Source: Chloroflexota bacterium (GTDB taxonomy: Bacteria; Chloroflexota; Anaerolineae; J036; Brachytrichaceae). Taken from it: 64,000 nucleotides of DNA. The notes below the pieces were generated by a model that was given only the letters and a program-made list of their open reading frames with translations, was not told the DNA's origin and made no database searches. Shown one piece after another: positions 372 through 5,461 of this stretch. The first letter of the stretch is position 1. Each line of letters opens with the position of its first letter. The DNA is taken from contig JANXLU010000019.1 of the NCBI GenBank assembly GCA_025354985.1, positions 1-64,000 of the forward strand. Reading direction: 5' to 3'. Position numbers and translations under genes: made by a program.

Positions 372-2216
372 ATGATAGATTTTGCGACTTCCAGCGCGGC
401 CAATGTTTCCTGGGATTTGAGTGAGCTATTTGTCGCTCCAGATGATCCGCGGATTGAAGCCACACTCGACCGTTTAAACCTGGACGCGGACGAATTTGTG
501 CGTGCCTATCGCGCCAAATTCGCGGCGTCGCGCGGGCCATCCGCGACTGCATTGTGCGAAGCATTGCACCGATATGAGGCGCTTCAGGAAGTGTGTGCCC
601 GTCTTGGCTATTTTGCAAGTTTGAGCTATGCGGCGGACACGACCAGCGATCAAAACCGCCATTTGGCGCAGCATATTGAAGAGGCTCTGACCTCGGTAAG
701 GAATAAACTGCTGTTTTTCGACCTGGCCTGGCTGGCACTGCCCGACGTTTCTGCAACCCGGCTGATAAACAGCCCAAAGCTTGAAGCCTATAAGAACTAT
801 TTAAAGTGCGCACGGGATATGAAGCCGCACACGCTTTCAGAACCGGTTGAACAGGTGATCAATGACAAGGATTTGACGGGGCTGAACGCCTGGTCGAAAT
901 TGCATACAGAGTATCTGGCGGGTCTTAAATTTGAGGTGACACAGGGTGGCATCACGAAGTTGCTCAGCCAAAGCGAGATATTGGTGTTGATGAGGCACCC
1001 GGATCGTAGCGTACGCAAACATGCACATGAGGTGTTTTTTGGCACCATCAAGAAACACAGTCAGATTTTGACCTTTATCTACGACACGCGGTTTCAAGAT
1101 CACCTGGTAAACATGCGGCTGCGCCAATACACAAGCCCGATGCAGGAGCGACATATTGCCAACTCGGTGCAACCAGCCGCGGTTGACGCCATGATGCTGG
1201 CTGTTGAACGCAACATGCCGTTGGCGCATCGATATTTCAATTTGAAGGCACGGTTGCTTGGATTGCCAAAACTGGAAATTTATGACCAATACGCGCCTGT
1301 GTTGGAAATAAAGGAAAAAATCAGCTATACCGACGCGGGCGCGCGCATTATTCAGGCCATGCACAAGTTTTCGCCTGAATTTGCGAATATAACCCAGCAA
1401 TTTTTTGAACAAAGCTGGATTGATGCCGACCCGCGCCCGGGAAAACGGGGAGGCGCGTTCTGCGCCGGTGTCACGCCCAGTGTTCACCCGTTTATTCTGA
1501 TGAGCTACAACGATGACTTGCGGGACGTTATGACGCTGGCCCACGAACTGGGCCATGGTCTGCATGATCGGCTGGCCTCCGAACAAACCCTGCTCAATTA
1601 CTATCCGTCGCTGCCCATTGCCGAAACCGCATCCGTGTTTGCCGAGATGCTGACGTTTGAGGAGTTGCTGTCTGGAATGTCGAGCGATAAAAACCGGCTG
1701 GCGCTGCTATGCGCCAAAATAGAGGATAGTTTCGCCACGGTATTTCGACAGACCGTTCTCACGCGGTTTGAGCAGCTTGCCTATGCTGCGCGAGGGGAAG
1801 GTCGGCTGACCACAGAGCGGATATGCGACCTATGGCTGCATGCCAACGCACCCTATTACGGTGACAGTGTATCGATGACGCCAGGATATGAAGCGGGCTG
1901 GAGTTACATACCGCATCTTATTAATACACCCTTTTATTGCTATGCCTACTCGTTTGGTCAGCTGTTGGTTTTAGCGCTATATGGCATGTATCGGCGCGTG
2001 GGCGCTGAAACATTTGTGCCCAGGTATCGGGCGCTCCTGGCGGCAGGCGGCAGCAAAACACCCGCTGAAATTGTCGCCGGGATAGGCATGAATATTGACG
2101 ATCCCGACTTCTGGCAGGTGGGTTTTGATGAGCTGGCACGATTCGTGGGTGATGCTGAACGGCTGTCCGGCACCGTCACCGCTGCGGCAAGCCAACCAGA
2201 CGCCGCACATCCGTGA
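372..2216 (+). CDS. M3 family oligoendopeptidase (PepF-like)
   Basis: This is a zinc metallopeptidase of family M3B that degrades oligopeptides in the cytoplasm. The product is 614 aa, normal for oligoendopeptidase F. The zinc site HELGH lies at about residues 391-395, and the third ligand Glu at about 418 in AETASVFAE, the typical M3 spacing. The N-terminal helical domain (WDLSELF near residue 14) is also typical. The frame opens earlier, at 312 and 357, but ATG 372 gives the natural start of the family (MIDFATS), and a GATAAT hexamer at 359-364 would place a transcript start almost on it. The 3' end overlaps the convergent trpS gene by 41 bp. Substrates are unknown, so I give no symbol. Confidence 0.9.
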   Translation: MIDFATSSAANVSWDLSELFVAPDDPRIEATLDRLNLDADEFVRAYRAKFAASRGPSATALCEALHRYEALQEVCARLGYFASLSYAADTTSDQNRHLAQHIEEALTSVRNKLLFFDLAWLALPDVSATRLINSPKLEAYKNYLKCARDMKPHTLSEPVEQVINDKDLTGLNAWSKLHTEYLAGLKFEVTQGGITKLLSQSEILVLMRHPDRSVRKHAHEVFFGTIKKHSQILTFIYDTRFQDHLVNMRLRQYTSPMQERHIANSVQPAAVDAMMLAVERNMPLAHRYFNLKARLLGLPKLEIYDQYAPVLEIKEKISYTDAGARIIQAMHKFSPEFANITQQFFEQSWIDADPRPGKRGGAFCAGVTPSVHPFILMSYNDDLRDVMTLAHELGHGLHDRLASEQTLLNYYPSLPIAETASVFAEMLTFEELLSGMSSDKNRLALLCAKIEDSFATVFRQTVLTRFEQLAYAARGEGRLTTERICDLWLHANAPYYGDSVSMTPGYEAGWSYIPHLINTPFYCYAYSFGQLLVLALYGMYRRVGAETFVPRYRALLAAGGSKTPAEIVAGIGMNIDDPDFWQVGFDELARFVGDAERLSGTVTAAASQPDAAHP

Positions 2217-3198
2217 TGGTTTGCGCGGCCACTGTCCGGGCTTGATCCGCGGTTTCGTGCATCAGCTTGTGAATGGCATCCCGATCTGCTGCGATCTCGG
2301 CGCGCCGGGCACGAACTCCGCTTGACAGCGCAACCAGTGCATCGGCAACTGCGTCCTTTAACGGCGCATATTTTCTATCTCCTGAACGAAACTGATTTTC
2401 AAAGGTTGCCGCCGTGTCCCCCAGATCACATGCGCGCAGAAGCCCAAGCAGATTATGCACCCCGGGGCTCAGTTCGCCCTCGGGTGTTTCTCCTGAATCC
2501 GTAATTGCTGAACGCACCCGCGCACGAATAACCCTTTCCTCGCCAAAGAGCGGCACCACGTGTTTTTCACCCAGGCTCTTGCTCATTTTCTTGCCCGGAT
2601 CGGCCAAAGACAGCAACTTGGGCAGCTCGGTTGAAAGCACTTTTGGCTCGGGAAAGTAGTCCCGACCAAACTGTTTGTTAAACCGGCGGGCGATGACGCG
2701 TGAAAGTTCGAGGTGCTGCTCCTGGTCCCGGCCTACCGGCACATACGCGCCGTGATAAAGCAGGATATCGGCGGCTTGGAGAACTGGGTAGTTGAACAAG
2801 CCAGCAGATATGAACCCGCCTGACGTAGGATCGTCAACGGTTGCAGCCAACTGTTCGCTCTTTTCTTTGAACTGAATCTGCCGGGTAAGATCACCATAGC
2901 TTGCCACGCAGGAAAGTATCCAGTTCAGCTCGGCGTGTTGCGGCACCATGCTCTGAATAAATACGGTGCACCGCTTCGGGTCCAACCCGCATGCCAGCAG
3001 GCTGACAAACATTTCTTCGGTATTCTTTTGGAACACCGCCACGTCATAGGGCATGGTCATTGAATGCATATCCACAACGCAAAAAAAGCAGCGGTGCAAA
3101 TCCTGCAGGCGGACCCAATTTTTGACCGCGCCAAAGTAGTTGCCTACGTGCAGCTCGCCCGTGGGTTGTATGCCGCTAAAGACTGTTTTGTTATCCAT
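2176..3198 (-). CDS. trpS: Tryptophanyl-tRNA synthetase
   Basis: This class I aminoacyl-tRNA synthetase charges tRNA-Trp with tryptophan using ATP. The 340-aa length is typical of bacterial TrpRS. The HIGH-type signature is GELHVGNYFG near residue 15 after the usual FSGIQPTG segment, and KMSKS is intact at residues 204-208 (GKKMSKSLGE). The AAD(I)LLY segment of the tryptophan pocket is present. It starts 6 bp after the aroF stop on the same strand, so it is almost certainly cotranscribed with aroF and shares the upstream aromatic attenuator. Its 3' end overlaps the convergent peptidase gene by 41 bp. Confidence 0.96.
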   Translation of the reverse strand: MDNKTVFSGIQPTGELHVGNYFGAVKNWVRLQDLHRCFFCVVDMHSMTMPYDVAVFQKNTEEMFVSLLACGLDPKRCTVFIQSMVPQHAELNWILSCVASYGDLTRQIQFKEKSEQLAATVDDPTSGGFISAGLFNYPVLQAADILLYHGAYVPVGRDQEQHLELSRVIARRFNKQFGRDYFPEPKVLSTELPKLLSLADPGKKMSKSLGEKHVVPLFGEERVIRARVRSAITDSGETPEGELSPGVHNLLGLLRACDLGDTAATFENQFRSGDRKYAPLKDAVADALVALSSGVRARRAEIAADRDAIHKLMHETADQARTVAAQTITDVRRLVGLPQR

Positions 3199-3204
3199 GG
3201 GTGG

Positions 3205-4248
3205 TTAAACCGTTTTGTCCACTGCCTCGGCAATTCGGCGAACCTGCCGCACCAATTCGGCGAATTGGGTTGGGTCCAAGGATTGGGCGCCATCACTCAT
3301 GGCTTGGGTCGGGTCGGGATGCACCTCGATGATCAGACCATCCGCGCCAGCGGCCACCGCAGCCCGGGATGTTGCAAGGACATATTCGCTTTTGCCGGTT
3401 GCGTGCGAAGGATCAACCACAACCGGCAGGTGACTCAGGCTCTTTAGCACCGGAACCGCATTGATATCCAGCGTGTTTCGCGTGTATTTCTCAAATGTGC
3501 GAATTCCGCGTTCGCACAGGATGACGTTGTAATTGCCCTTTGCGAGAATATATTCCGCGGCCATTAGCAATTCCTCCATCGTTGCCGCCATGCCGCGCTT
3601 GAGCAACACCGGCTTCATGCTTTCACCGGCGGCGTTTAGCAAGGCGAAATTTTGCATGTTGCGAGCGCCGATTTGCAGCACATCGGCATACTCACACACC
3701 ATTGGAACCAAACCCGGCTCCATTACCTCGGTCACAATTGCCAAACCAGTCAGCTCGCGCGCCTCGGCCAGCCACTTCAAGCCAAGCTCGCCGTGACCCT
3801 GAAAGGAATAAGGAGATGAACGCGGCTTATACGCACCGCCGCGCAGTGCCATCGCACCAGCTTCTTTTACTGCGAATGCACTCTCTATGATTTGCTCGCG
3901 GCTTTCCACGCTGCACGGTCCAGCGATGATTCCTACATGGCCGTTGCCGCCGATGGTCAGTGTCTTGGGCCCCAGGTCGTTTCTTGCTGCTGCAAAGGTG
4001 ACGGCGCTATCGTTTTTGCGAAAATCCCGGCTGGCCAGCTTGAACGGCTTCAGGATATTCATTGTGCTTTCAACACCGGGTAGCGAATCAAACAAGGTCG
4101 GATCGAACGGGCGCTCGTCACCGACAACGGCAATGACCGTTCGCTCCTCACCAATAATGGGGTGGGGCGTAAGCTTTACCTGCTCGATTCGCTTGATGAC
4201 TCCGGCTATTTGTACTTGTGTTGCTCCTGCTTTCATCGTGATTACCAT
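3205..4248 (-). CDS. aroF: 3-deoxy-7-phosphoheptulonate (DAHP) synthase, FXD-domain type
   Basis: It condenses phosphoenolpyruvate and erythrose 4-phosphate to DAHP, the first committed step of the shikimate pathway. The product is 347 aa. An N-terminal ferredoxin-like (FXD, ACT-like) domain of about 70 residues begins [10 protein letters not shown] and precedes the catalytic barrel, which shows [35 protein letters not shown] and VDPSHATG. In characterised enzymes of this architecture the N-terminal domain binds aromatic amino acids for feedback inhibition; that is family knowledge, not shown here. The frame extends to 4290, but ATG 4248 is preceded by AGGAG at the right distance and matches the family N-terminus. 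It is first in an operon with trpS and lies behind a leader peptide and terminator. Confidence 0.95.
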
Positions 4249-4287
4249 GTGATGTAGTCTCCTGCCATTTACGTTTATCCTGAAAAA

Positions 4288-4321
4288 CAAAAAAAGGCGC
4301 AGAGCTTACAACTCTGCGCCT
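4288..4321 (-). terminator. Attenuator terminator in the aroF leader
   Basis: On the minus strand a perfect 10-bp stem (arms 4321-4312 and 4304-4295, AGGCGCAGAG with CTCTGCGCCT) closes a 7-nt loop and is followed directly by a run of T residues. It lies after the leader ORF and 47 nt before the aroF start codon, inside the transcription unit, so it is better read as a regulated attenuator than as the end of another gene. A candidate antiterminator pairs GCAGAG of the upstream arm with CTCgTGC at 4369-4363 (6 pairs, one bulge); I could not fold it. Confidence 0.85.
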
Positions 4322-4345
4322 GTGTTGGCTTTCCATCTACTACTT

Positions 4346-4435
4346 TTAGATTGCCACACGCTGCACGAGTGCAAGCCCTTTAGCCTTGCTAAAGTAGCCA
4401 TACCAAAAGTAATAGCTAAAGTTTGCCCGTTGCAT
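4346..4435 (-). CDS. Aromatic-rich leader peptide of the aroF-trpS operon
   Basis: This 29-codon ORF runs from ATG 4435 to TAA 4346. Residues 5-15 read NFSYYFWYGYF, three Phe, four Tyr and one Trp in eleven residues, followed by a Lys/Ala/Leu/Val tail. Such a run of codons for the pathway's end products is the hallmark of ribosome-mediated attenuation. It begins only about 5 nt after the predicted transcription start, so translation is probably leaderless; there is no Shine-Dalgarno. A 7-bp hairpin (4394-4388 with 4384-4378) follows the aromatic run and the terminator begins 24 nt after the stop. It is too short to be found by ordinary ORF calling. I infer that starvation for charged Phe, Tyr or Trp tRNA stalls the ribosome here and permits read-through into aroF. 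Confidence 0.85.
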   Translation of the reverse strand: MQRANFSYYFWYGYFSKAKGLALVQRVAI

Positions 4436-4447
4436 GTGACGGTCAGA

Positions 4448-4476
4448 ATCTTATCTGCTATCGGCAAATTTGTCAA
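4448..4476 (-). promoter_or_regulatory. Promoter of the aroF-trpS operon
   Basis: On the minus strand a perfect -35 TTGACA (4476-4471) is separated by exactly 17 bp from a -10 TAAGAT (4453-4448). The expected start is about 4441-4440, only a few nucleotides before the leader ATG at 4435. Confidence 0.8.
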
Positions 4477-4587: not shown

Positions 4588-4629
4588 GTTGTGCAATACC
4601 CACCATATGTTGTGCAATACCCACCATAT
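4588..4629 (+). repeat. Perfect 21-bp tandem duplication before the ABC ATPase start
   Basis: Two identical 21-bp units (4588-4608 and 4609-4629, beginning GTTGTGCAATACCC) abut each other and end one base before the ATG at 4631. Because 21 is a multiple of three, the units are also an in-frame duplication of the codons for CNTHH if translation starts at TTG 4589, giving a Cys/His-rich N-terminal extension. They may instead be a duplicated operator or a recent replication slip. Confidence 0.85.
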
Positions 4630-4630
4630 T

Positions 4631-5461
4631 ATGAAGGCGCTAATCGAGTTAAGAAATGTGACGTTCGGCTATGGTCGCATGCCGGTTCTTGAGAACATTA
4701 ATGTGCATTTGCATGCCGGACAGTTTGCCGCGCTCGTCGGGCCGAGTGGCGCGGGTAAGAGCACGTTCTTGCGTCTGGTGTTGGGCACGTTGCAACCAAC
4801 CCGGGGAGAGGTGGAACAGTGCGCGGAGGTTCTCGGCGATCACTGCAATCGTGACGCACAAATCGGCTACATTCCACAGCTTGAAACGGTGGATTGGAAT
4901 TTCCCGGTAACAGTGGATCAAGCTGTGTTGATGGGTCTTACGCGCAAAAGCGCCTGGGTACCCTGGCATTCGGCCGCGGACAAGGTTAAGCTGGGCCAAA
5001 TATTGGCACGGCTGGAAATTGATACCCTCGCGAAACGGCACATCCGGGATTTGAGCGGTGGGCAGCAACAGCGCGTTTTCCTTGCGCGCGCGTTGATTGC
5101 GGAGCCGGATATTCTTGTATTGGATGAACCAACCAGTGGTGTTGACGTCCGGACGGCGCAAAATGTGATGCATCTGTTGGCTGATCTAAACACCGCCGGC
5201 ATGACCGTCCTGTTGACCACGCATGATCTCAACCTGGCCGCGGCACATGTGCCGTGGGTGATTTGTCTTAACAGGAAGGTCATTGCGCAGGGCACGCCCG
5301 ACGATGTGTTTAACGAGGCGACGCTTAATGCGACTTATAACGGAGACATGCTGGTGCTTCGACAGAACGGCATGCTCCTGATACAAGAGCGGATGCATGG
5401 TCACTCCTGGAGAGAGACCGCGCCGAATGCAGTGCTCGGGCACGAATTGGTTTCAGAATAA
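4631..5461 (+). CDS. Metal (Zn/Mn-type) ABC transporter ATP-binding protein
   Basis: This is the cytoplasmic ATPase of an ABC-3 family metal importer (ZnuC/MntB-like). From ATG 4631 it has 276 aa. It carries Walker A GPSGAGKST near residue 37, a Q-loop, the signature LSGGQQQR near residue 140, Walker B ILVLDEPTSGVD and the switch His in TTHDLN. The frame stays open upstream to TTG 4589, which would add 14 residues with two CNTHH units; I prefer ATG 4631 because the conserved ABC N-terminus (IELRNVTFGYG) starts right there, but no start has a clear Shine-Dalgarno. The permease follows 54 bp downstream. No periplasmic-type binding-protein gene is next to it, so the metal cannot be named. Confidence 0.92.
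   Translation: MKALIELRNVTFGYGRMPVLENINVHLHAGQFAALVGPSGAGKSTFLRLVLGTLQPTRGEVEQCAEVLGDHCNRDAQIGYIPQLETVDWNFPVTVDQAVLMGLTRKSAWVPWHSAADKVKLGQILARLEIDTLAKRHIRDLSGGQQQRVFLARALIAEPDILVLDEPTSGVDVRTAQNVMHLLADLNTAGMTVLLTTHDLNLAAAHVPWVICLNRKVIAQGTPDDVFNEATLNATYNGDMLVLRQNGMLLIQERMHGHSWRETAPNAVLGHELVSE

Follow-up and report, generated by a model that had tools for sequence, protein, structure and literature searches.

Transcription attenuation by leader peptides is a textbook mechanism, and the ilvGMEDA operon supplies a precedent for an attenuator that answers to several amino acids at once. According to Naville and Gautheret (2010; PMC2965389), such systems were known only in Proteobacteria and Actinobacteria before their own work added the Firmicutes. 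The aroR leader of C. glutamicum is described as carrying Phe-Tyr-Phe before aroF, acting by attenuation and allowing more read-through under Phe limitation (Neshat et al. 2014, in PMC11802643; PMC4046766). The uORFC-13-1 motif of Acholeplasma, a predicted uORF with a terminator, occurs exclusively upstream of aroF (PMC8632094), and the leader peptides of Streptomyces trpS attenuators control trpS directly (PMC1262725). Leaderless or RBS-less starts have been described for the leader peptides of S. meliloti trpL (PMC7298713) and of C. glutamicum ilvBNC (Morbach et al. 2000, in PMC10272879; PMC11857589). A leader-peptide attenuator from the Chloroflexota, or one reading Phe, Tyr and Trp together, was not found in the searchable literature, where an earlier prediction within surveys (Lopatovskaya 2010, Vitreschak 2004) is possible.

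Here we describe a leader before aroF in the 64,000-nucleotide stretch of Chloroflexota DNA analysed as a whole (from this point on, the window). It is very probably a ribosome-mediated transcription attenuator triggered by scarcity of any one of three charged tRNAs. The window comes from a draft assembly of 98 contigs, whose nearest named records are Anaerolineae, several of them labelled Thermoflexales or Candidatus Roseilinea.

The leader and the genes behind it

The sequence-only reading of this DNA had proposed a consensus promoter, a 29-codon ORF just past the predicted +1 with three Phe, four Tyr and one Trp codon, and a 7-bp hairpin beyond the aromatic run; all are present on the minus strand (Table 1). 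From the position of the -10 box, +1 would fall near 4441, about 6 nt ahead of the leader ATG. Eight aromatic residues lie within 11 codons of the ORF, and the 5' arm of the hairpin, P1, takes in the final Phe codon together with some of the final Tyr codon. The proposed terminator with its U-tract before aroF is likewise there, although its stem (4321-4295), given as 10 bp, counts 12 pairs when the two top pairs, one of them G-U, are included; the stem is followed by TTTTTTGTTTTT and the terminator lies 46 nt upstream of the aroF start. The locus therefore has the short ORF rich in end-product codons expected of an attenuator, a feature seen in 26 of the 28 family genomes, and an intrinsic terminator between that ORF and the first structural gene.

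Table 1. Features of the leader locus, with their positions in the window
Feature	Position	Strand	Details	Evidence
Promoter, sigma-70 type, TTGACA-17-TAAGAT	4448..4476	-	TTGACA 4476-4471, TAAGAT 4453-4448	
Leader peptide ORF, 29 codons	4346..4435	-	MQRANFSYYFWYGYFSKAKGLALVQRVAI; ATG at 4435	Aromatic run conserved in family
Control codons	4391..4423	-	NFSYYFWYGYF (3 Phe, 4 Tyr, 1 Trp)	
Post-run hairpin P1	4378..4394	-	7 bp, CTTTAGC-AAG-GCTAAAG	Covariation in 24 leaders
Antiterminator, 5' strand	4368..4379	-	AGGGCTTGCACT (= AGGGCUUGCACU); inside leader ORF end	Duplex energy, compensatory changes
Antiterminator, 3' strand	4301..4313	-	AGTTGTAAGCTCT (= AGUUGUAAGCUCU)	Duplex energy, compensatory changes
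Intrinsic terminator and U-tract	4287..4321	-	12-bp stem, GTA loop	Covariation in 24 leaders
aroF, type I-beta DAHP synthase	3205..4248	-	347 aa	NCBIfam NF006421 478.9 bits (cut-off 335), TIGR01361 383.7 bits
trpS, tryptophanyl-tRNA synthetase	2176..3198	-		TIGR00233 282.9 bits (cut-off 176.75)

What the earlier description lacked, and is added here, is an antiterminator. Starting where the run ends, the RNA is predicted to be able to form a long alternative hairpin, whose 3' strand spans the top of the terminator 5' arm, the loop and the upper half of the 3' arm, making the two structures mutually exclusive. The duplex has a dG of -30.3 kcal/mol in the window, compared to a mean of -21.5 for shuffled upstream sequence, and only one of 200 shuffles is as low. 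The same shuffle test gives p<=0.05 in 31 of the 55 leaders found (see below), with the same-genus relatives on the weak side (L003 and L004, z near 0; L008, z -1.4). The presence of this antiterminator argues for an attenuator, that is, for more than an ORF that happens to precede a terminator, and to that extent the earlier reading is borne out.

The aroF start at 4248 is preceded by an SD-like GGCAGGAGA. The gap between aroF and trpS is 6 bp, an adjacency seen only here among the family genomes, and neither a minus-strand promoter nor a terminator was found at the junction; the two genes are probably co-transcribed. In two same-genus genomes, trpS is near aroF on one contig, with an acetyltransferase-like ORF between them. 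It was not found in G001, and in the remaining family genomes it is far off or on other contigs. Judged from this synteny, co-control of trpS may be a genus-level feature. Of the two targets first assigned to the leader, DAHP synthase thus holds across the family, while trpS stands directly behind aroF in the window only. Elsewhere in the family, the genes behind the leader are aroH/aroG/aroF-tyrA-aroA-aroE-aroC, without trpS; the EPSP synthase gene of the window genome is on another contig. In G005, the leader precedes aroH-aroG-tyrA and then genes reading as aroA, aroE and aroC, and a type I-beta aroF was not found. The leader being kept there without it, the association follows the first pathway step and not one protein family.

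Several family genomes carry DAHP synthases in tandem. In the L014-L026 group (genomes g2, g5 and g6), an aroG type (TIGR00034) and then a type I-beta aroF follow the leader, and in L115-L122 copies of type I-beta aroF, some 65-73% identical to the single copy of the window, are in tandem within one operon. On the other strand of the window, 4589-4633 (+) holds two head-to-tail copies of TTGTGCAATACCCACCATAT directly before a divergent gene for a metal-type ABC transporter ATPase, and this repeat pair is a possible operator.

Conservation and distribution

The regions upstream of aroF in relatives reprise the same design in changing letters, as in MRFFAYFSYFWFNYF..., MTRGAFSFSYFWFYGYF..., MVSVRFWGYFWFSYF... 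and MACHRFYGYFWFYGYF.... A scan of 2.17 Mb of partly redundant strand sequence, taken from loci around aroF and further aromatic genes, looked for an ORF that has at least five aromatic residues in 12 codons and a terminator behind it. All 55 distinct matches are just before DAHP-synthase genes and none is elsewhere: nine precede aroF, 34 precede the chorismate mutase gene aroH and then aroF, 11 precede an aroG-type DAHP synthase gene and then aroF, and one is an overlapping duplicate. By the same criteria, no leader peptide was found before trpE or pheA in nine genomes. Immediately upstream of aroF, leaders that combine an aromatic run and a terminator also occur in records from Ignavibacteria (L093:3847-3969, where the antiterminator is 15 bp, uninterrupted) and Phycisphaeraceae (L103:3803-3942).

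A covariance model built from 24 family leaders was searched against the 28 family genomes and the class. Exactly one copy was returned in 26 of the 28, including the window genome; in the other two, aroF was either present as a mere fragment or not found. Weaker yet significant matches, some of them partial and covering the terminator alone, occur in 57 further genomes of the 396 searched in the class, and related leaders rich in Phe and Tyr are widespread in Anaerolineae. The sequence-only reading had staked itself on relatives having conserved aromatic codons and a terminator upstream of aroF. Both are kept, together with an antiterminator that covaries.

Covariation was assessed on an alignment of the 24 family leaders, with slid pairings as the control. 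P1 pairs in 91.7% of cells (37-64% in the controls), with exchanges such as GC/AU and CG/GC. The antiterminator pairs in 93.5% of cells (19-41% in the controls), a figure in which some cells of the window are scored as unpaired, as MAFFT shifts its row by two bases there. Four antiterminator pairs have changed on both sides; to illustrate, AGCUUAC/GUAAGCU becomes AGCUUAU/AUAAGCU and AGCUUGC/GCAAGCU. Terminator pairs form in 98.2% of cells, six of them changed on both sides. Leaders from outside the family have the same layout in unrelated letters, for example GGAGCGUU compared to AACGCUCC.

The start of the transcript is equally characteristic. A full TTGACA (6/6) with 16-17 bp spacing is found in 22 of the 24 family leaders, and in these the -10 box is 12-19 nt from the ATG (median 16), which would make the 5' UTR about 5-12 nt long. 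No match to the Shine-Dalgarno consensus longer than 4 nt was seen at the leader ATG in the family. Where a promoter can be recognised in other Anaerolineae, most of these distances are 30-45 nt; three leaders depart from this, at 5-7 nt. The near-leaderless start, occurring in 22 of 24 leaders, is therefore a character of the clade and not an accident of the window.

A model of the switch and its rivals

Under the proposed mechanism, transcription would start at about 4441 and a ribosome would load at the nearly 5'-terminal ATG. With Phe-, Tyr- and Trp-tRNAs all charged, the ribosome would pass the run, open P1 and the antiterminator strand, and reach the stop codon, at which point the terminator would end transcription. 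Were any one charged tRNA scarce, the ribosome would stall on the run and mask the 5' strand of P1. Farther downstream, AGGGCUUGCACU could then base-pair with the emerging terminator, at its top, its loop and the upper part of its 3' arm, and transcription would continue into aroF and, in the window, trpS. Translation of the leader, stalling, and a response to each amino acid are what this layout predicts, and the common first enzyme would come under an OR of three inputs.

Two folding models differ on whether the position of the ribosome chooses the fold. Equilibrium folding of the complete leader with masked ribosomes yields mostly the terminator for almost all ribosome states and shows no switch; antitermination must therefore be kinetic. 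A model that folds the RNA at nascent lengths, crude as it is and with a shuffle control added, was used in its place and does agree. In the window, the probability of the antiterminator is 0.77-0.88 with the ribosome stalled at a Phe, Tyr or Trp codon and 0.24 with the ribosome at the stop. The family medians are 0.55 and 0.00, and the difference between stall and stop is 0.31 in the family versus a mean of 0.00 with shuffled upstream sequence. L003, L004 and L008 again score poorly. Folding the leader had been suggested at the outset as a check: the leader RNA is more stable than every one of 200 shuffles (z -3.9), and of the two models the nascent one favours the antiterminator upon stalling.

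Which amino acids are read is a question of the run. Phe and Tyr codons are in all leaders, and Trp is within the run, at a matching place, in about 20 of the 24 family leaders. The three residues replace one another at the same places, such that the aromatic class is kept; 73% of positions in the run are aromatic in the coding frame as against 8-10% in the other frames. Substitution rates by codon position show no classic synonymous excess, a test made uninformative here by the exchange of Phe for Tyr and back, which runs through position 2. The first-drawn picture of one leader for all three aromatic amino acids thus stands as regards mixed codons kept as a class, while sensing of each amino acid is suggested by these codons and the folding model.

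The leader could instead be an attenuator for Phe and Tyr only, with the single Trp codon incidental. Most other Anaerolineae leaders have just Phe and Tyr codons, with Trp in a minority; three members of the family (L008, L011 and L013) have lost Trp from the run, so that Trp sensing is not universal; and aroR of C. glutamicum, the closest studied case, has Phe-Tyr-Phe (PMC11802643). We nevertheless consider this unlikely for the window, given the matching place of Trp in most of the family, a modelled stall at the Trp codon that yields as much antiterminator (0.88) as one at Phe or Tyr, and trpS behind aroF.

That the aromatic peptide itself arrests the ribosome upon binding of a small molecule, as in TnaC, is highly improbable. 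The peptide is certainly rich in aromatic residues, and stretches such as YGYF or SYF are conserved within sub-clades. The run, however, varies in length and spacing, and the fixed residues of a TnaC-type arrest peptide are missing, since Phe, Tyr and Trp swap freely within their class. Such interchange fits sensing of tRNA charge better than a fixed arrest peptide.

A T-box or riboswitch before aroF, binding a tRNA or a metabolite and making the ORF incidental, is scarcely credible, even though the lineage does use T-boxes. What is conserved is the aromatic codons along with the three helices, and no T-box sequence (RF00230) is matched at the leader. Among 4227 Rfam families at gathering score, there were no matches in the window and none at the leaders scanned; with a permissive threshold, the best at the leader is RF04312, at 25.9 bits where gathering is 59. 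As for the T-boxes themselves, one precedes trpE in five family genomes (L131, L132, L133, L134 and L138) at 57-86 bits, below the Rfam gathering score of 93, and standard annotation would therefore miss them. Three more sub-threshold T-boxes in the window genome (L151, L152 and L153, on contigs C19, C20 and C45) precede, by eye, a valS-like start, a leuS-like start and a stretch containing a YbaK-like ORF.

Finally, an ordinary terminator behind a chance ORF, for which it might be said that a consensus promoter or terminator taken singly is no rarer than expected in shuffles of the region, is refuted by the conservation, the exclusive association with DAHP-synthase operons and the covariation, and we give it practically no credence.

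A T-box reads one tRNA. The mixed leader, by contrast, could read three, which would suit an enzyme common to three products. We consider it reasonably probable that the attenuator described here works as an OR gate with three inputs (tRNA-Phe, tRNA-Tyr and tRNA-Trp) on a near-leaderless mRNA at the shared first step, while the one-tRNA T-boxes of the lineage serve the Trp branch (trpE). If so, there is a reason to keep a leader peptide beside T-boxes, in that one RNA watches three tRNAs. The leader would then also offer a naturally designed sensor with several inputs that can be tested directly, and it would speak for near-leaderless initiation on an ORF with a regulatory role.

Comparison with known attenuators

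Mixed sensing and a near-leaderless leader had both been called unusual. They are, although C. glutamicum aroR and ilvBNC and S. meliloti trpL are precedents. Attenuators of trp and phe operons and aroR were already known; what appears to be new is the set of Phe, Tyr and Trp, the Chloroflexota lineage and the near-leaderless architecture. As in the enterobacterial trpL, pheL, pheST and ilvGMEDA attenuators, control codons are coupled to a choice between antiterminator and terminator. The window differs from these in that its antiterminator strand pairs with the loop of the terminator and the upper part of the 3' arm, the final control codons run into P1, and regulation is aimed at the common aromatic pathway. 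Placing trpS under a leader peptide recalls the Streptomyces attenuators, with the difference that trpS in the window is the second gene, behind aroF. In its start, the leader resembles Sinorhizobium meliloti trpL and C. glutamicum ilvBNC, the first of which has Trp only and the second branched-chain amino acids. Acholeplasma uORFC-13-1 shares the uORF and terminator before aroF, but it comes with an RBS and with a U-run that encodes one Phe or more, and its 24 representatives are of another lineage and structure (PMC8632094). Closest is C. glutamicum aroR, likewise an aromatic-codon leader peptide before a DAHP synthase operon with ribosome-mediated attenuation; it is described with three aromatic codons, with no mention of Trp, and it belongs to another phylum, whereas the leader of the window has eight, Trp included.
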